Shown here: positions 8,483-18,267 of the stretch, in pieces
Layout: the number at the start of each line of letters is the position of its first letter
Position numbering within the stretch: position 1 is the first letter of the stretch
DNA from: an uncultured delta proteobacterium
Lineage (GTDB): Bacteria; Desulfobacterota; Syntrophia; Syntrophales; Smithellaceae
Direction of reading: 5' to 3'
DNA length: 33,650 nucleotides
NCBI GenBank assembly: GCA_903907985.1
Contig: CAIVQG010000079.1
Location: 1 to 33,650 of the forward strand
The notes under the pieces: generated by a model
Told to the model about the DNA's origin: nothing
The model's database searches: none
What the model saw: the letters and a program-made list of their open reading frames with translations, nothing else
Program-made: the position numbers and the translations under genes

Positions 8483-9118
8483 TTGAAATATTATCCCGTC
8501 TTTTTAGATATTTGGGGCAAAAAATGCGTGGTGGCCGGCGGCGGCGAAGTAGCCGCAAGAAAGGTCGCGAGACTGCTCGATTGTGGCGCTAAAGTTCTTA
8601 TTGTGAGTCCGCGGCTAACGCCGGAGCTCACCGCACTGAAAGCTGAAAGTGCCATAGAACATATTGCTGCCGATTATAATATTCAATACATTGAAGGCGC
8701 GGTTTTAATCATCGGGGCGACGGATGATGAAACAATCAATGCGTCGATTTCTTCCGATGCCAGAAGCCTGGGAATATCGGTAAACATAGTTGACGATCCG
8801 CAGAAGTGCGATTTTATTCTACCCTCTATAGTGGAAAGAGGCGATCTGATCCTGGCCATCGGTACGGGCGGCAAAAGTCCGGCGTTGGCCCGCTATTTGC
8901 GCGAAGAGATGGAGGCTGTCTATGGTAATGAATATGCGATTCTTCTTAAAGTATTAGGCCAATTGCGGGGAAAAATGGAGAAAAATACCGGTAAGGGCAG
9001 AGTCTGGTTTGATGAGCTTTTGGCCGGGGGATTATTGGATGCGATCCGAAAAAATGATGCAGGCAGAGTGAAAAAAATCATCCGTGACATTACCGGTGAG
9101 GAGGTGCACATTGATTAG
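8483..9118 (+). CDS. Precorrin-2 dehydrogenase (siroheme synthase, Met8/CysG N-terminal type)
   Basis: A 211-residue NAD-dependent enzyme that oxidises precorrin-2 to sirohydrochlorin; some family members also insert iron to give siroheme. Evidence: YYPVFLDIWGKKCVV leading into the Rossmann GGG loop (AGGGEVAARKVARLL), the GATDDETIN segment, VNIVDDPQKCDFILPSIVERGDL and IGTGGKSPALAR, all hallmarks of the Met8/CysG N-terminal family. There is no methyltransferase domain; that activity is in the CobA-HemD fusion downstream. The start is TTG at 8483, with GAAAGGAAAA upstream. The 3' end overlaps hemX by 8 bp. It supplies siroheme or its precursor to the Ahb enzymes of this cluster. Confidence 0.9.
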   Translation: MKYYPVFLDIWGKKCVVAGGGEVAARKVARLLDCGAKVLIVSPRLTPELTALKAESAIEHIAADYNIQYIEGAVLIIGATDDETINASISSDARSLGISVNIVDDPQKCDFILPSIVERGDLILAIGTGGKSPALARYLREEMEAVYGNEYAILLKVLGQLRGKMEKNTGKGRVWFDELLAGGLLDAIRKNDAGRVKKIIRDITGEEVHID

Positions 9119-9938: not shown

Positions 9939-11201
9939 ATGATTGTATTAGTCGGATTAAATCATAAAACGGCGCCGCTTAGCGTGCGCGAAAAACTCTT
10001 TGCCGGATGTCAGGGTGAGAGCAATCTGCTGGGCGATCTGCGGGCGATTGACGGCGTGCTGGAAATCATGTACCTTTCCACCTGCAACCGCGTGGAGCTG
10101 GTTGCTGCCGTTGAGGATGCGCCGCAGGCGCTAAACGCGCTCAAATATTTTCTGGCCGGACAAGGCGGCCTGACCAATGAAGAAGCTGCGGTCTGCCTGT
10201 ATGGATATCAGGATGCAGAAGCGATCCGACATATGTTCCGGGTCACCTCCAGCCTCGATTCACAGGTCATGGGCGAGGCGCAGATCCTTGGTCAGGTGAA
10301 AGATGCCTACCGCCAGGCGCTGGAGAAAAACGCTACCGGTATTGCGCTTAACCGCCTGATGCACCGCGCTTTTCGCACCGCGAAGCGCGTGAGGACGGAA
10401 ACAGGCATTGCCGCTAATCCGGTTTCGGTGAGCTTTGCCGCAGTGGAACTGGCCAAGAAAATATTCGGAACGCTCGCCGGCAAAAAAGTATTATTGATCG
10501 GCGCGGGAGAAATGGCGGAGTTGACCGGCCAGCATCTGATCGGCAACGGTGCGGAGGAAATAACCGTCGCCAACCGGTCGCTGTCTCAGGCCGCGTCGCT
10601 TGCGGAAAAGTTTCACGGTAAAGCCATCGGACTTGCCGTTCTTGACGAAGCGCTTTGCAATGTCGATATTGTTATTAGTTCCACCGGTGCGCCGTCGCAT
10701 ATCGTAACGCAGGAGATGATTCGCCAGTGTTTGCGCAAACGCAAAAACCGCCTGCTGTTTTTAATCGATATTGCCGTGCCGCGCGACATTGATCCTGCAG
10801 TGGATAGCATAGAGAATGTCTATTTGTACAATATTGATAATTTGCAGGATATTGTCGATGAAAACATGAAAAACCGCCGCTGTGAGGCGCTCAAAGCCGA
10901 GCAGATCGTTGCCGAAGAGGTAACGCAGTATAGCAACTGGCTTAAGGAGCTGGGGGCTGTGCCCACTATCGTGTCGTTGCGCAACAAGGCCGAAGCCATT
11001 GTGCGGATGGAGATGATAAAAGCACAAAGCTGGATGTCGAAGCTCGAAAATGGTGACCGCGAAAAGGTGGACGTGTTGGTAAAGGGCATAGTTAACAAGC
11101 TCCTCCACGCGCCGGTGGCGGTAATGAAGGAAGAAAGCGCCGAGTTAAATTCTCAGGATATTGTTGCCGTCGTCCGGCAGCTCTTCCGCCTGGATGAGTA
11201 G
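9939..11201 (+). CDS. hemA: Glutamyl-tRNA reductase
   Basis: A 420-residue enzyme making glutamate-1-semialdehyde from glutamyl-tRNA with NADPH, the committed step of C5-route tetrapyrrole synthesis. Motifs: NHKTAPLSVREK at the N-terminus, YLSTCNRVEL with the thioester-forming C49, VTSSLDSQVMGEAQILGQVK, the NADPH site LLIGAGEMAEL, and a C-terminal dimerisation helix bundle (from about residue 310). Length fits the family. It lies between hemX and hemC. The next enzyme, HemL (semialdehyde aminotransferase), is not in the window. Confidence 0.97.
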   Translation: MIVLVGLNHKTAPLSVREKLFAGCQGESNLLGDLRAIDGVLEIMYLSTCNRVELVAAVEDAPQALNALKYFLAGQGGLTNEEAAVCLYGYQDAEAIRHMFRVTSSLDSQVMGEAQILGQVKDAYRQALEKNATGIALNRLMHRAFRTAKRVRTETGIAANPVSVSFAAVELAKKIFGTLAGKKVLLIGAGEMAELTGQHLIGNGAEEITVANRSLSQAASLAEKFHGKAIGLAVLDEALCNVDIVISSTGAPSHIVTQEMIRQCLRKRKNRLLFLIDIAVPRDIDPAVDSIENVYLYNIDNLQDIVDENMKNRRCEALKAEQIVAEEVTQYSNWLKELGAVPTIVSLRNKAEAIVRMEMIKAQSWMSKLENGDREKVDVLVKGIVNKLLHAPVAVMKEESAELNSQDIVAVVRQLFRLDE

Positions 11202-11212
11202 TAAGGAGTTTT

Positions 11213-12127
11213 ATGAATATAAAAATTGGAACCCGCGGCAGTAAACTGGCTTTGGTTCAGGCCAATACTGTTGTGGAGATTTTAAAAAAAGTTGCCCCGG
11301 AAATATCAGCCGAGATTTGTGTGATCAAAACCAGCGGGGACATCATGCAGGATGTTTCGTTGCTTAAGATCGGCGGCCAGGGCGTGTTTGTCAAAGAAAT
11401 TGAAGACGCGCTGCTGGCGGGAAGTATTGATCTGGCGGTACACAGCATGAAGGATGTGCCCGGTGAAACGCCGGAGGGCCTGACGTTCGGGGCTATCCTG
11501 CTACGGGAAGACGTGCGCGATATTTTAGTATCACGCGGCAATGTTAAGCTCGAATTTATGCCCCGGGGCGCGAAAATCGGCACCGGTTCGCTGCGGCGTG
11601 GCGCTCAGATTCAGGCAATACTTCCCGATGTTATCATTGTACCGTTGCGCGGCAATATCGATACGCGCTTGAAAAAGATTGAATCGGAAAATCTTACTGG
11701 TGTCATCCTGGCGGCCGCAGGAATGAAGCGCTTGGGATATGCGGAAATAATTACGCAGTATCTGCCGATAGAATTAATGTTGCCGGCGGTAGGTCAGGGT
11801 GCGCTGGGCCTGCAGATACGAAAGGCAGATTCCGGTTTGGCCGGGGTTTTAGCCAGACTCAACCATGCGCCAACCGCTGCTGCCATTACCGCAGAGCGCT
11901 CCTATCTGCGAGCGCTGGGGGGTGGCTGCCGTCTGCCGATTGCAGCTTACGGCCTCATCGAAGGCCAGCGGTTGACACTCGAAGGCCTGGTGGCTGCGCC
12001 CAATGGAATAAGCGTTATCCGGGATAAAGTATGGGGCGCTCTGGACGAAGCGGAAGACTTAGGTAAGAGGCTGGCCGACATGATTATGGAAAAAGGCGGC
12101 AAAAAACTCTTGAATCTGGTGTGTTGA
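11213..12127 (+). CDS. hemC: Porphobilinogen deaminase (hydroxymethylbilane synthase)
   Basis: A 304-residue enzyme that joins four porphobilinogen units into hydroxymethylbilane. Evidence: IGTRGSKLALVQA at the start, HSMKDVP (78-84), LRRGAQIQA and LRGNIDTRL for substrate-carboxylate binding, PAVGQGALGLQ, and ALGGGCRLPIAAYG with C239 as the attachment site of the dipyrromethane cofactor. AAGGAG precedes the ATG at normal distance. It follows hemA by 11 bases; the stop lies 5 bases before the ATG chosen for the next gene. Confidence 0.97.
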   Translation: MNIKIGTRGSKLALVQANTVVEILKKVAPEISAEICVIKTSGDIMQDVSLLKIGGQGVFVKEIEDALLAGSIDLAVHSMKDVPGETPEGLTFGAILLREDVRDILVSRGNVKLEFMPRGAKIGTGSLRRGAQIQAILPDVIIVPLRGNIDTRLKKIESENLTGVILAAAGMKRLGYAEIITQYLPIELMLPAVGQGALGLQIRKADSGLAGVLARLNHAPTAAAITAERSYLRALGGGCRLPIAAYGLIEGQRLTLEGLVAAPNGISVIRDKVWGALDEAEDLGKRLADMIMEKGGKKLLNLVC

Positions 12128-12132
12128 ATAAT

Positions 12133-13677
12133 ATGAATCAAAATACTAAAACAGGTAAAGTCTATATAATAGGAGCGGGGCCGGGTGATGCGGGTTTAAT
12201 CACGCTCAAGGCCGTGGAGTGTTTGCGTCTGGCCGATGTGGTCATCTACGATAATCTGGTCAACGAAGAATTGCTGAAATACGCGCCGCCTTATGCCCGT
12301 TTCATATACGCCGGTAAAAAAGGCGGCGATCACACGCTGTCACAGGATAAGATCAACGCTCTGCTGGCCCAAGAGGCTCTGGACGGCAACACTGTAGCCC
12401 GTCTCAAAGGCGGCGATCCTTTTATTTTCGGGAGGGGTGGGGAAGAGGCGGAAATATTGGCTCTCAATGATGTGCCGTTCGAAATAATTCCCGGCGTGAC
12501 GTCGGCCATCGCCGTTCCGGCCTACGCTGGTATTCCGCTGACTCATCGGGGACTCACGTCCACGGTGGCTTTTATTACCGGCCATGAAGATCCGACCAAA
12601 GACAAAAGCGACATCGACTGGCAGGCTTTATGCGGCATAGGCACGCTGGTATTTCTGATGGGTGTGAAAAATATCGGGCAAATTACCGAAGCTTTGATCT
12701 CGCACGGCAAGTTACCGGACACGCCAGCGGCGCTGATTCGCCGGGGCACGACGCCTCATCAGGAAGTGATTACAGGCACGCTGGCCACGATTGTTGAGCA
12801 GAGTCAAACCAATAATTTCAGACCTCCGGCCATCCTTGTTGTCGGGAAGGTTGTTGAATTAAGAGAAACACTTTGCTGGTATGATACAAAACCGCTGTTT
12901 GGCAGGGGAGTTGTCATTACCCGTCCCGAAAGGCAGGCAGATGATCTGGCCAGGCTGCTTGCGGCCCAAGGTGCTTCTCCCATTGCCTTTCCGACGATCA
13001 GCATTGTGCCGCCGAAAGATTGGAACGAACTGGATCGCGCACTTGATCATCTGGAATCATACCACTGGCTGATTTTTACGAGTGCCAACGGCGTCAATTT
13101 CTTTTTTAAGCGTTTGCGGGAAAAAAGCAGAGATATTCGCGATCTCCAAGGAATAAAGATCTGCTGCATTGGACCGGCCACGGCACGGCAGATTGAAGAC
13201 AGAGGCATTAAAGTTGATCTGGTGCCCCAGGAGTTTATCGCCGAGGGCATTCTGAAATCATTTGCCTCGCTGGATTTGTCAGGAAAGAAGATTCTGGTCC
13301 CGCGTGCGGCAGTAGCCCGCGATATTCTGCCGGAAGGTCTGAAAAAGCAAGGCGCAACAGTCGATGTTGTCACAACGTATCAGACGGTTAAATCCGGGAG
13401 AAAAAAGGAGGAGCTCATGAAATTGATCGACGCAGGCGAAGTGGATATTATCACCTTCACCAGTTCTTCCACCGTGAACAACTTTATGGAAATTATGGGG
13501 GCGGAGTATGTGCTGCCTTCGTCCATTCAGATTGCCTGCATCGGCCCGGTGACAGCGGCAACCGCAAAAAAAGCAGGATTTCCAATTGATATTTCCCGGG
13601 AAGAATACACCATGGAGGGACTGGTACAGTCTCTGATTAATCATGTGCAAGCAAAATTGTCCCGAACGAATGCGTGA
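12133..13677 (+). CDS. cobA-hemD: Fused uroporphyrinogen-III C-methyltransferase / uroporphyrinogen-III synthase
   Basis: A 514-residue two-domain protein. Residues 1 to about 250 are the SAM-dependent methyltransferase making precorrin-2 from uroporphyrinogen III ([61 protein letters not shown]). Residues about 260-514 are uroporphyrinogen-III synthase, which cyclises hydroxymethylbilane ([47 protein letters not shown]). The fusion channels HemC product straight to the siroheme branch and is common in anaerobes. I chose ATG at 12133; a GTG at 12121 that overlaps the hemC stop is also possible, and neither has a strong ribosome site. Confidence 0.95.
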
Positions 13678-13686
13678 GGAAAAAGT

Positions 13687-14874
13687 ATGATCGGTATTTC
13701 CAAACTATATTGTGGAGCGGTAGAACCATCCGATGTGCTGCGCTACAACCGGCACTCCGGGCAATTACCTTCGCATTTGCTACAATTTTCAGCGGATAAA
13801 AAACCGGTGGTGGTCTGGAACATGACGCGCCGCTGCAATCTGAAGTGCATTCACTGCTATTCTAATTCCGCCAACATCGACTACCCCGATGAGCTAACCA
13901 CTGAGGAGGGCAAAAAGCTGATTGACGATCTGGCGGCATTTGGTGCTCCGGTAATCCTGTTTTCCGGCGGCGAACCGCTGATGCGGCATGATCTGCTGGA
14001 ACTGGCGCAGTACGCGACAGACAATGGTCTGCGCGCAGTCATTTCCACCAACGGTACGCTGATCACCAAAGAGATCGCCGTGAAACTCCAGAAGATTGGC
14101 CTTTCGTATGTCGGCGTGAGCCTGGATGGCCTGGAAAAAACGCACGATCGTTTCCGGGGAAAGAAGGGAGCATTTGCCGAAGCTATCGCCGGCATCAGAA
14201 ATTGCCGCGACGCCGGTATCAAGGTAGGTATCCGCTTTACTGTCAATAAGCACAATCTGGCCGATGTTCCGGCCATGTTTGATCTCCTCCGGAAAGAAAA
14301 TATTGAAAGAATGTGTTTCTATCATCTGGTTTATACCGGTCGCGGCTCCAAGTTGCGCGAGGAGGATTTGACCCATGAAGAAACCCGCCGGCTGCTGGAT
14401 TTAATTGCCGGTGAGACGAGAAAGATGTTCGACTGCGGTCTGTCACCGGAAATACTTACTGTGGATAACCATGCCGACGGGCCGTATCTGTATCTGAAAA
14501 TGAGGCAGGAAGATCCTGAACGGGCCAGGGAAGTGTTGGAGCTACTCGAAATGAACGAAGGCAACAGTTCCGGGCACGGCATTGGTTGTGTAAGCTGGGA
14601 TGGCGAAGTCTATCCAGACCAGTTCTGGCGCAACCAGCCGCTGGGAAATGTGAGGCTCAAGCCCTTCAGCGAAATCTGGCTGGATGAAAAAAACGAGTTG
14701 CTGGTCAAATTGAAAGACAAGAAGAAACACGTTCACGGGCGTTGCGCTGCGTGCTGCTGGCTTACCGTCTGTGGCGGCAACTTCCGGGCCAGGGCCGAAT
14801 CGGCAGGCGATCTCTGGGGGCCTGATCCCGCCTGTTATCTTTCCGATGAGGAAATTACAGCAAAGGAGGTTTAA
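13687..14874 (+). CDS. ahbC: Radical SAM 12,18-didecarboxysiroheme deacetylase AhbC
   Basis: A 395-residue radical SAM/SPASM enzyme. In the siroheme-dependent pathway AhbC removes two acetate chains from 12,18-didecarboxysiroheme to give Fe-coproporphyrin III. The AhbC-type N-terminus is present (MIGISKLYCGAVEPSDVLRY), then the cluster motif CNLKCIHC (C50, C54, C57), the GGEP motif, and a cysteine-rich C-terminal SPASM region (GIGCVSWDGEVYPDQFW; CAACCWLTVCGG). The ATG follows 9 bases after cobA-hemD, with GAGGAAAAAGT upstream. The position within a heme operon and the homologous AhbD downstream support this over the related heme d1 enzyme NirJ. Confidence 0.92.
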   Translation: MIGISKLYCGAVEPSDVLRYNRHSGQLPSHLLQFSADKKPVVVWNMTRRCNLKCIHCYSNSANIDYPDELTTEEGKKLIDDLAAFGAPVILFSGGEPLMRHDLLELAQYATDNGLRAVISTNGTLITKEIAVKLQKIGLSYVGVSLDGLEKTHDRFRGKKGAFAEAIAGIRNCRDAGIKVGIRFTVNKHNLADVPAMFDLLRKENIERMCFYHLVYTGRGSKLREEDLTHEETRRLLDLIAGETRKMFDCGLSPEILTVDNHADGPYLYLKMRQEDPERAREVLELLEMNEGNSSGHGIGCVSWDGEVYPDQFWRNQPLGNVRLKPFSEIWLDEKNELLVKLKDKKKHVHGRCAACCWLTVCGGNFRARAESAGDLWGPDPACYLSDEEITAKEV

Positions 14875-14876
14875 GT

Positions 14877-15383
14877 ATGGAAACGGAGCAGTTGAAAGAA
14901 AATTTAGAATTAGTAGAAAAATTAAAAAATGTTCCGGTACTGCATTCCTTCGGCAAAAAAGATATTAACAAACTTCTCAGCTTCAGTAATGTAAAAAAAT
15001 ACTCAGCGGGTGAAATGATTATTGAGGAAGGAAGTTATGATAACTGGATTTATTTTTTAATAGACGGCAATGTTCGCATTATCAAAAATTCAGAGGAGAT
15101 AGACACTCTGAGGCGTACCGGAGATATCTTCGGAGAAATGTGTGTGATTGACGGCTGTCCGCGGTCGGCTTCGATTCAGGCCATGGACGATGTTTCTTGT
15201 CTGGCAACAGATGTATCCTTTATAGATCGCCTCTACAATGAAGACAAGGTGGCATTCTGTTCGATATTTTATCAGATGGTGGCTGAAGTGTTAGCTTGCC
15301 GGTTGCGGGAAACAAGTGGTGAACTGGCCAGAGTTAAAGAAGAGCTTCAGATGCTGAAAAGCGTCAACAACAAAGGAGGTTAG
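14877..15383 (+). CDS. Cyclic nucleotide-binding domain protein without output domain
   Basis: A 168-residue soluble protein. Residues about 20-135 form one cNMP-binding beta-barrel of the CRP/FNR superfamily: YSAGEMIIEEGSYDNWIYFL, IDGNVRII, and the phosphate-binding cassette GDIFGEMCVIDGCPRSASIQA, with the Glu and the Arg-Ser pair that contact cAMP in CRP. Behind it is a helix of about 30 residues (ETSGELARVKEELQML) but no helix-turn-helix, so it is not a DNA-binding regulator by itself. AAAGGAGG precedes the ATG; 2 bases separate it from ahbC and 3 from hemB, so it belongs to the operon. It may sense a nucleotide or a tetrapyrrole and act on a partner protein. That is inference. Four cysteines are present in the chain. 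Confidence 0.85.
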   Translation: METEQLKENLELVEKLKNVPVLHSFGKKDINKLLSFSNVKKYSAGEMIIEEGSYDNWIYFLIDGNVRIIKNSEEIDTLRRTGDIFGEMCVIDGCPRSASIQAMDDVSCLATDVSFIDRLYNEDKVAFCSIFYQMVAEVLACRLRETSGELARVKEELQMLKSVNNKGG

Positions 15384-15386
15384 AAA

Positions 15387-16361
15387 ATGCAGTTTCCGGA
15401 TTACCGTCCCCGCCGATTAAGAAAAAATGAGAACTTCCGTCGTTTGATACGGGAAACACAGTTGAGTATCAATGATTTTATCTATCCGCTTTTTGCAGTT
15501 CCCGGTAAAAATGTTAAAAAGCCAATCCAAGCGATGCCGGGCATTTTTCAGCTGTCGACAGACAACATAGTCGCGGAAGCTCAAAAGGCGCGAGAGCTGG
15601 GGATACCCGGTATATTGCTGTTTGGGATTCCCTCAAGTAAAGATGATCTGGCCACCGGTGCCTTTGCTAAAGACGGGATTATTCAACAGACTGTTCGCCG
15701 GGTGAAAAAGGAAGTGCCGGACATTCTAGTTATCACTGATGTCTGTCTTTGTGAATACACCAGTCATGGCCATTGCGGTATGATCGAAAAAGGAGCTGTG
15801 GACAATGACATGACGCTGGAAGTACTGGCGGAAACCGCTGTTTCCCATGCGCGTGCCGGTGCCGATATGGTTGCACCATCAGCTATGATGGATGGGCAGA
15901 TAGCGGCAATCCGCGAAGGTCTCGATGAACAAAATTATGAGAATATTCCCATTATGGCTTATGCGGCTAAATATGCTTCCTGTTTCTACGGTCCTTTCCG
16001 TGAAGCGGCACAAAGCGCACCTCAGTTTGGCGACCGGAAAGATTACCAGATGGATCCGGCCAACGGTGATGAAGCTATTCGGGAAATTACACTTGATGTT
16101 TCAGAAGGCGCAGATATTATCATGGTGAAACCGGCGCTTGCTTATCTGGATATTATCTGCCGTGCAAAACAGGAGTTTGATTTGCCGCTTGCGGCATATA
16201 ACGTTAGCGGTGAATATTCGATGATTAAAGCCGCGGCGCAAATGGGCTGGCTTGATGAAGAAAAGGCCATGCTAGAATCACTGACGGCAATCAAACGCGC
16301 CGGTGCGGATATAATTATTACCTACTGGGCAATGCAGGCAGCAAAGGTGCTGAGCAAGTAA
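15387..16361 (+). CDS. hemB: Delta-aminolevulinic acid dehydratase (porphobilinogen synthase)
   Basis: A 324-residue enzyme joining two aminolevulinate molecules into porphobilinogen. The active-site lysines are visible at K195 (AYAAKYASCFYGPFR) and K248 (IIMVKPALAYLDI). DVCLCEYTSHGHCG carries C120, C122 and C130, which mark the zinc-dependent type. AAAGGAGG precedes the ATG. This is the last gene of the tightly packed part of the operon; a 216-base gap with nested inverted repeats separates it from ahbD. Confidence 0.97.
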   Translation: MQFPDYRPRRLRKNENFRRLIRETQLSINDFIYPLFAVPGKNVKKPIQAMPGIFQLSTDNIVAEAQKARELGIPGILLFGIPSSKDDLATGAFAKDGIIQQTVRRVKKEVPDILVITDVCLCEYTSHGHCGMIEKGAVDNDMTLEVLAETAVSHARAGADMVAPSAMMDGQIAAIREGLDEQNYENIPIMAYAAKYASCFYGPFREAAQSAPQFGDRKDYQMDPANGDEAIREITLDVSEGADIIMVKPALAYLDIICRAKQEFDLPLAAYNVSGEYSMIKAAAQMGWLDEEKAMLESLTAIKRAGADIIITYWAMQAAKVLSK

Positions 16362-16577: not shown

Positions 16578-17648
16578 ATGGAATCAAGACATGTTCCAGT
16601 AATATCCGGTAGCAAAGTGCGCATGATTGCGTGGGAAGTGACGCGCAGCTGCAATTTGAATTGCCTGCACTGCCGCGCTGCTGCCAATTGCGGTCCTTAT
16701 CCCGGAGAACTGTCCTCTGAAAAGTGCTTGGCGCTGATCGATGAAATTGCCGCCGTATCATCACCGGTAATTATTCTGACCGGCGGCGAGCCGCTACTGC
16801 GTCCGGACATTTTTGAAATTGCCGCCTATGGAACCAAAAAGGGCTTGCGCATGGTCATGGCGACCAACGGCACGCTTGTGGATGAGCAAATAGTGCGCAA
16901 GATGAGGGATAGTGGAATCCAGCGTGTCAGCATCAGCATTGACGGTAAGGACGCTCAAAGCCATGATGCTTTCCGCGGTGAATCAGGCGCGTTTGCCGGG
17001 GCAATGCGGGGCATAGAAGCAATGAAATCTGTGGGGATGGAGTTTCAGATCAATACGACGATTACAACCGCCAATCTTCAGCAGATCAAAGATGTCCACA
17101 ATATGGTCTTAAAGTCAGGCGCGGTGGCGCATCATATTTTTCTGCTAGTGCCAACCGGAAGGGGCAGAGATCTGGCAGCGCAGGCCATCACCGCCGCTGA
17201 TTACGAAGAAACGCTAATGTGGTTTCATCAGGAAAGTCTGACTTGTGCCATTCAGCTCAAAGCCACCTGCGCGCCTCATTACTTCCGCATTATGCACCAG
17301 AATAAGGCGAAAGGGACTGAGCCGGTGAAGAAAGCGGGTGGCCACTTTCACGAATCCACCCGAGGCTGTCTGGGCGGCATTTCCTTTTGTTTCATATCTC
17401 ATTTAGGCCAAATTCAGCCTTGCGGTTATCTGGAGCTTAACTGCGGCAATGTGCAAAAACAGAGCTTTGCCGAAATATGGGAACGCTCCGAGGTGTTTTG
17501 CAATCTGCGCGATTACGGCAAATACGGCGGCAAGTGCGGCCGCTGTGAATTTATCAAAGTCTGCGGGGGCTGTCGGGCGCGGGCATACGAGGCGACGGGT
17601 GATTACTTGTCAGAGGAACCGTTGTGCTTGTACGAACCAGGCCGTTGA
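16578..17648 (+). CDS. ahbD: Radical SAM heme synthase AhbD (Fe-coproporphyrin III decarboxylase)
   Basis: A 356-residue radical SAM/SPASM enzyme that oxidatively decarboxylates two propionates of Fe-coproporphyrin III to give heme b, the last step of the alternative pathway. CNLNCLHC (C25, C29, C32) binds the SAM cluster, TGGEP follows, and the C-terminal half has the cysteines of a second cluster (GCLGGISFCFISHLG, QPCGYLELNCG, CGRCEFIKVCGGC). It resembles AhbC but lacks the AhbC N-terminal extension. The ribosome site is moderate (TAAGG). It stands apart from hemB by a repeat element and may be transcribed by read-through or from its own promoter. Confidence 0.92.
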   Translation: MESRHVPVISGSKVRMIAWEVTRSCNLNCLHCRAAANCGPYPGELSSEKCLALIDEIAAVSSPVIILTGGEPLLRPDIFEIAAYGTKKGLRMVMATNGTLVDEQIVRKMRDSGIQRVSISIDGKDAQSHDAFRGESGAFAGAMRGIEAMKSVGMEFQINTTITTANLQQIKDVHNMVLKSGAVAHHIFLLVPTGRGRDLAAQAITAADYEETLMWFHQESLTCAIQLKATCAPHYFRIMHQNKAKGTEPVKKAGGHFHESTRGCLGGISFCFISHLGQIQPCGYLELNCGNVQKQSFAEIWERSEVFCNLRDYGKYGGKCGRCEFIKVCGGCRARAYEATGDYLSEEPLCLYEPGR

Positions 17649-17820: not shown

Positions 17821-18267
17821 ATGGACGATATCGACAAAAAAATATTAAATATACTGCAAAAGGAATTTCCGCTTACGGAACGGCCTTTTTGGGCCGTAGC
17901 GGAAAAATGCGGCATCAGCGAAGACGAAGTAATCAGCCGCGTTCAAAAGTTGAAAGAGAAGGGAATTCTTCGTCGAATCGGAGCGATCTTCAACGGTGCT
18001 AATTTGGGCCGCGTCAGCACTCTTTGCGCGGCCCGGGTGCCGGAAGAAAAGCTGAAAAATTTTGTTAGTGCCGTTAACGCTTACTCCGGTGTGACGCATA
18101 ATTATCTGAGAAACAATGACTATAATGTGTGGTTCACGGTGAATGCAGCAAACAGGAAAGAAATTGCCCGGTTTCTTGCGCAGCTAAAAGAGAATACAGG
18201 CGTGATAGATATTCTGGAAATGAATGCAGTACGTACTTTTAAAATAGATGCTTCCTTTGAAATGTAA
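17821..18267 (+). CDS. Siroheme decarboxylase subunit, AhbA/AhbB family (Lrp/AsnC-like)
   Basis: A 148-residue protein with an N-terminal winged-helix-like part (LDEDE-type: DKKILNILQKEFPLTERPF) and a C-terminal RAM-like domain. It is not a normal Lrp regulator: RRIGAIFNGANLG, STLCAARVP and VTHNYLRNNDYNVWFTV are signature segments of AhbA/AhbB, the pair that removes the C12 and C18 acetate carboxyls of siroheme. Known systems use two different subunits; only one is in this window, and I could not decide between A and B. It follows ahbD after a repeat and precedes polA by 47 bases. Its product feeds AhbC. Confidence 0.85.
   Translation: MDDIDKKILNILQKEFPLTERPFWAVAEKCGISEDEVISRVQKLKEKGILRRIGAIFNGANLGRVSTLCAARVPEEKLKNFVSAVNAYSGVTHNYLRNNDYNVWFTVNAANRKEIARFLAQLKENTGVIDILEMNAVRTFKIDASFEM

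Follow-up and report, generated by a model that had tools for sequence, protein, structure and literature searches.

A stand-alone cyclic nucleotide-binding (CNB) protein is encoded directly behind ahbC in the heme operon of the 33,650-nucleotide stretch of DNA analysed here (the window), and among relatives the linkage of this gene goes with ahbC, not with hemB or hemA. The kind of protein is known and its gene association is new; its occurrence in about a dozen related anaerobes suggests, from gene order and residue conservation, that cyclic AMP may be linked to heme synthesis. We tentatively favour the reading that the protein is a CRP-like, dimeric cAMP receptor lacking a helix-turn-helix, which would tune AhbC through protein contact; we regard this as quite possible, though short of probable.

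The CNB gene is co-directional with both neighbours and, as the initial annotation had described, lies 2-3 bases from each, with 2 bases between the ahbC stop and its start and 3 bases between its stop and the hemB start. The sequence also provides the CNB gene and hemB each with a Shine-Dalgarno of its own, located within the 3' end of the preceding gene. The features concerned are:

9939..13677, + strand: hemA, hemC and cobA-hemD, in the same operon as the CNB gene (Pfam/NCBIfam matches)
13687..14874, + strand: ahbC, 12,18-didecarboxysiroheme deacetylase (radical SAM), directly 5' of the CNB gene (TIGR04546, E 3.9e-211)
14862..14876, + strand: Shine-Dalgarno AAAGGAGG and spacer of the CNB gene, within the ahbC 3' end and stop (sequence)
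14877..15383, + strand: stand-alone CNB protein gene, ATG start, open reading frame of 168 aa (PF00027)
15123..15176, + strand: phosphate-binding cassette, residues 83-100, DIFGEMCVIDGCPRSASI (alignments with E. coli CRP)
15300..15329, + strand: C-helix motif RLRETSGELA, residues 142-151, with T146-S147 aligned with CRP T127-S128
15372..15386, + strand: Shine-Dalgarno AAAGGAGG and spacer of hemB, formed by the closing KGG codons and the stop codon of the CNB gene (sequence)
15387..16361, + strand: hemB, porphobilinogen synthase (PF00490, NF006762)
16578-17648, + strand: ahbD (TIGR04545)
17821-18267, + strand: ahbA (NF040708)

The operon order is sirC, ccsA-like gene, hemA, hemC, cobA-hemD, ahbC, CNB, hemB, ahbD, ahbA. 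The genes from hemA to ahbA were named by curated families and the CcsA-type gene by Pfam, and the open reading frame at 8483-9118 is what we take to be sirC. The ahbC product scores 700.8 bits against the TIGR04546 cut-off of 650 and is the sole above-cut-off copy among the genome matches listed. The operon holds ahbA without ahbB, for which the above-cut-off match lies on another contig (G000:C51:56346-56768). The G+C content of the CNB gene is 41%, compared with 48-53% in its neighbours. The gene is not a chance open reading frame, since orthologues occupy the same position in other genomes, and it is under purifying selection where present (dN/dS of 0.04-0.14 in pairs with unsaturated dS).

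PF00027 is the sole Pfam domain of the CNB protein (E 2.2e-15; 56.8 bits, cut-off 27.5) and occurs once; Pfam detected neither a helix-turn-helix family nor a kinase domain, and the alignment with CRP stops at the C-helix. NCBIfam gave only sub-threshold CNB/CRP-type matches, and the PHROGs comparison gave no match. With the cassette residues kept, the initial description of a cyclic nucleotide cassette without a DNA-binding or catalytic domain therefore holds. Gly86-Glu87 and Arg96-Ser97 align with Gly71-Glu72 and Arg82-Ser83 of E. coli CRP, and Cys108 aligns with CRP Cys92; Glu87 is found in 54/54 and Arg96 in 53/54 members of the wider family. In the AlphaFold2 model (mean pLDDT 71, from a 13-sequence alignment), N-terminal helices at residues ~2-34 precede a β-barrel at ~37-112, with the cassette helix at 87-92, and a long C-terminal helix at ~121-166 that is modelled with modest confidence (pLDDT blocks of 59-76). 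The solved structures matching this model include the CNB domains of PKA, PKG, HCN and CRP together with Geobacter 3MDP (Z 13-15), and cAMP- and cGMP-bound CNB domains are among them at Z about 15. Thr127 and Ser128 of CAP are the central-helix residues touched by cAMP in both subunits (PMC10127613). The corresponding Thr146 and Ser147 are each present in 12/12 members of the ahbC-linked clade, and in 46/54 and 33/54 members, respectively, of the whole family. Because they match the cAMP-contacting C-helix residues of CRP, a CRP-like cAMP-bound dimer is the natural reading of the aligned sequence.

The distribution of the gene was followed by a search of 59 relatives and by a profile search of the order (155 genomes) and of 395 genomes of the phylum. 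Among the 59 relatives, orthologues were found at 46-85% identity. The order ahbC-CNB-hemB occurs in seven genomes (G000, G034, G028, G002, G036, G006 and G043), and G000 and G034 share both the gene order and the 2-3 base spacing to ahbC and hemB. In G090, G091, G093 and G094, all of family f16, the CNB gene follows ahbC and hemB was not seen beside it. Wherever the upstream side is assembled (11 genomes), the ahbC-linked CNB gene comes immediately downstream of ahbC in the same orientation, and these genomes belong to four families of one Desulfobacterota order. In G060 the contig ends just before the CNB gene, and the gene that follows is of the same TPR kind as in f16. None of the other fetched members of the wider family adjoins ahbC. 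In a tree of 54 proteins, all ahbC-linked CNB proteins and that of G060 form one clade (support 96/89), the sister of which is the CNB protein of G044, whose gene is not linked to ahbC. The G044 stretch (L168, G044:C22:48000-64000) contains cobA-hemD, hemB and ahbD; no ahbA match was found in that stretch and no ahbC in the assembly (92% complete), and either a pathway change or an assembly gap is possible for the missing ahbC.

The expectation that the gene would be conserved between ahbC and hemB in relatives was borne out in part: G034, G028, G002 and others carry it there, but in many Syntrophales nothing lies at this position. In G001, G003, G007, G012, G021 and G008, ahbC is followed by hemB after 3-20 bases with no gene between, and no CNB orthologue was found at E 1e-28 in G001, G003, G008 or G012; the remaining genes of the operon, counted without ahbB, are present. 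Since many relatives have ahbC and then hemB directly, including two (G001 and G003) from the same genus as the window genome, the CNB gene is an accessory gene and not a core enzyme of siroheme-dependent (Ahb) heme synthesis. On the ahbC tree, its presence requires at least five gains or losses, and on the hemB tree the presence label clusters no more than in shuffles. The synonymous divergence of the CNB gene is below that of the flanking genes in several genome pairs. Among the f1 genomes, the branching order of the CNB tree (G006, G002, G000, G034/G028) agrees with the flanking-gene tree, so an ancient gene lost repeatedly is as good an explanation as recent horizontal spread, and both histories are possible.

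Family f16 separates the candidate partners. The only ahbC found in this family sits apart from the heme operon and is followed by the CNB gene, and hemB, hemA and ahbD lie on a contig other than that of ahbC and CNB; in G091 and G094 the remaining heme operon, from sirC to polA, is on another contig and lacks ahbC. The joint movement of the two genes may go back to a single relocation, and the arrangement persists in four sampled genera. G049, also of f16, has the relocated ahbC and lacks the CNB gene. In f16, the gene immediately 5' of the relocated ahbC encodes a YihY/BrkB-type membrane protein with a C-terminal CNB domain of its own (L145:2608-4230, + strand; L167:5374-7071, - strand). In G090, ahbC is thus flanked by CNB-containing genes on both sides, and in G049 by the YihY/BrkB-type one only.

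Because the CNB gene stays beside ahbC when ahbC is outside the operon, AhbC is the partner to suspect, and not HemA or HemB, which the initial annotation had put forward; HemB was dropped as a candidate since the f16 CNB gene adjoins ahbC and not hemB. A cAMP-binding protein that acts on another protein of the heme operon (HemB, AhbD or HemA) or on overall flux would be in keeping with the shared order and spacing in G000 and G034, but the same f16 arrangement makes this improbable. More serious is the possibility, which we consider real if somewhat doubtful, that the protein binds cAMP and has its target outside the heme pathway, the gene being an operon passenger that gains steady expression and owes its place behind ahbC to inherited chance. 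The wider family is found in many unrelated settings in other Desulfobacterota. The order carA-carB-purF-CNB-radical SAM occurs in G379 and G335, and purF-CNB-radical SAM in G285; these form a second clade (L172:4632-7599; L173:4785-7946; L129:47-3066). Other stand-alone CNB genes follow a nagZ-like gene (G140, G141 and G142), precede a gene for a TPR protein (G355, G507, G397 and G332) or lie alone; the carAB, nagZ-like and TPR names are our reading of the sequences. The stand-alone CNB protein is thus a general module, of which one clade alone is tied to ahbC. Many relatives whose operon is otherwise intact lack the ahbC-linked form, and G044 retains a CNB gene without a detected ahbC; both observations also favour a passenger. 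What speaks against a passenger is that a single clade has kept its position behind ahbC in four families, and that the gene remains the neighbour of ahbC even when ahbC lies apart from the other operon genes. Radical SAM genes beside CNB genes comprise ahbC, the gene of the purF-CNB-radical SAM order (3 genomes) and a B12-radical SAM gene (1 genome); the independent cases are too few to claim a general pairing, and the radical SAM proteins of L172 and L173, the two scanned, matched no NCBIfam model above cut-off.

The nature of the ligand allows two further readings. Class III cyclases are matched four times in the genome; at the substrate positions of two of these matches, the motif residues are Lys and Asp (L086) and Lys and Thr (L087), and the remaining two fell outside the motif filter. 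In class III cyclases, K/D and K/T substrate residues represent the adenylyl pattern. A barrel ligand other than 3',5'-cAMP or cGMP, for example another cyclic nucleotide, could do the same job, as sequence cannot reveal barrel specificity and the fold matches include PycTIR bound to cUMP (Z 14.3); however, the retained CRP contacts T127/S128 and the two cyclases of apparent adenylyl type render this quite improbable. The place in a heme operon had also led to the proposal of a heme or siroheme carrier, and a carrier or sensor of heme, siroheme or iron-coproporphyrin could be imagined to use the CNB barrel in the manner of the heme sensor CooA. In CooA-type heme sensors, a conserved histidine of the barrel binds the heme. 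No histidine column is conserved in the alignment of the ahbC clade, and the search for conserved His or Cys residues yielded only Cys108, shared with CRP Cys92, and the clade-specific Cys89 (11/12), which directly follows Met88 in the cassette helix and would speak for such a role. With the phosphate cassette (E87 and R96) intact and the CRP-type adenine contacts kept, we did not retain the carrier proposal and consider a heme-binding barrel very improbable. Because no histidine is conserved and two cyclases look adenylyl-type, cAMP is the likely ligand and heme is unlikely.

What we infer about the CNB protein, namely a cAMP ligand, dimer formation, an AhbC partner and an effect on flux, can be combined into the following mechanism. 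The barrel would take up a 3',5'-cyclic mononucleotide, with cAMP the likeliest, while the long C-helix would pair two copies of the protein. Filling of the sites with cAMP would rearrange the C-helices, as in CRP, and the output would be contact with a partner protein, not with DNA; for the ahbC-linked clade, AhbC would be the likeliest such partner. The reaction of AhbC from Methanosarcina barkeri, the conversion of 12,18-didecarboxysiroheme into iron-coproporphyrin III, is established (PMC3942049). The cellular cAMP level would thereby either raise or lower the flow from siroheme towards heme. The full proposal, in which a dedicated CRP-like cAMP receptor without a helix-turn-helix binds AhbC and sets the share of siroheme-derived precursor turned into heme, is rather unlikely to be correct. 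We count against tuning of AhbC the many relatives without the CNB gene, the repeated gains or losses on the ahbC tree, the related stand-alone CNB genes far from ahbC, the sister G044 with its CNB gene and no ahbC found, and, in f16, the possibly single origin of the joint movement together with the ahbC of G049 that lacks a CNB neighbour of this kind.

AhbAB is reported not to be inhibited by heme in vitro, in a paper that leaves feedback control of the pathway open (PMC3942049). If true, a cAMP receptor linked to ahbC would offer a concrete, testable candidate for a step at which the route from siroheme to heme is controlled. Bacterial cAMP would then act through something other than a transcription factor, and a radical SAM tetrapyrrole enzyme would be under second-messenger control at the protein level. 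Our literature search, with most subscription journals outside its reach, found no paper joining cyclic nucleotide binding with heme biosynthesis and ahbC, and none joining cyclic nucleotide binding, siroheme and Desulfovibrio.

Several known systems resemble the CNB protein in part. CbpA and CbpB are, to our knowledge, without a known link to heme genes. The effector half of CRP/CAP is similar in its barrel, and its cassette residues G71, E72, R82 and S83 and C-helix residues T127/S128 align position by position; in contrast to CRP, the CNB protein has no helix-turn-helix, its C-helix is followed by only a short helical tail, and its gene is set in a heme operon. Gmet_1532 from Geobacter metallireducens (3MDP, Z 15.2) and Mfla_1926 from Methylobacillus flagellatus (3GYD, Z 13.5) are likewise small CNB proteins with a matching fold, but have about 20% identity to the CNB protein over the aligned parts. 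The regulatory CNB domains of PKA and PKG give the highest matches both in sequence (E down to 4e-28) and in fold (Z about 15); theirs are tandem CNB domains with a kinase partner or domain, whereas here there is one domain and no kinase. CooA-type heme sensors differ in the conserved barrel histidine, which the ahbC-clade proteins lack. CbpA of Pseudomonas aeruginosa and CbpB of Brucella melitensis are named bacterial cAMP-binding proteins besides CRP (PMC4830989, PMC11139211).
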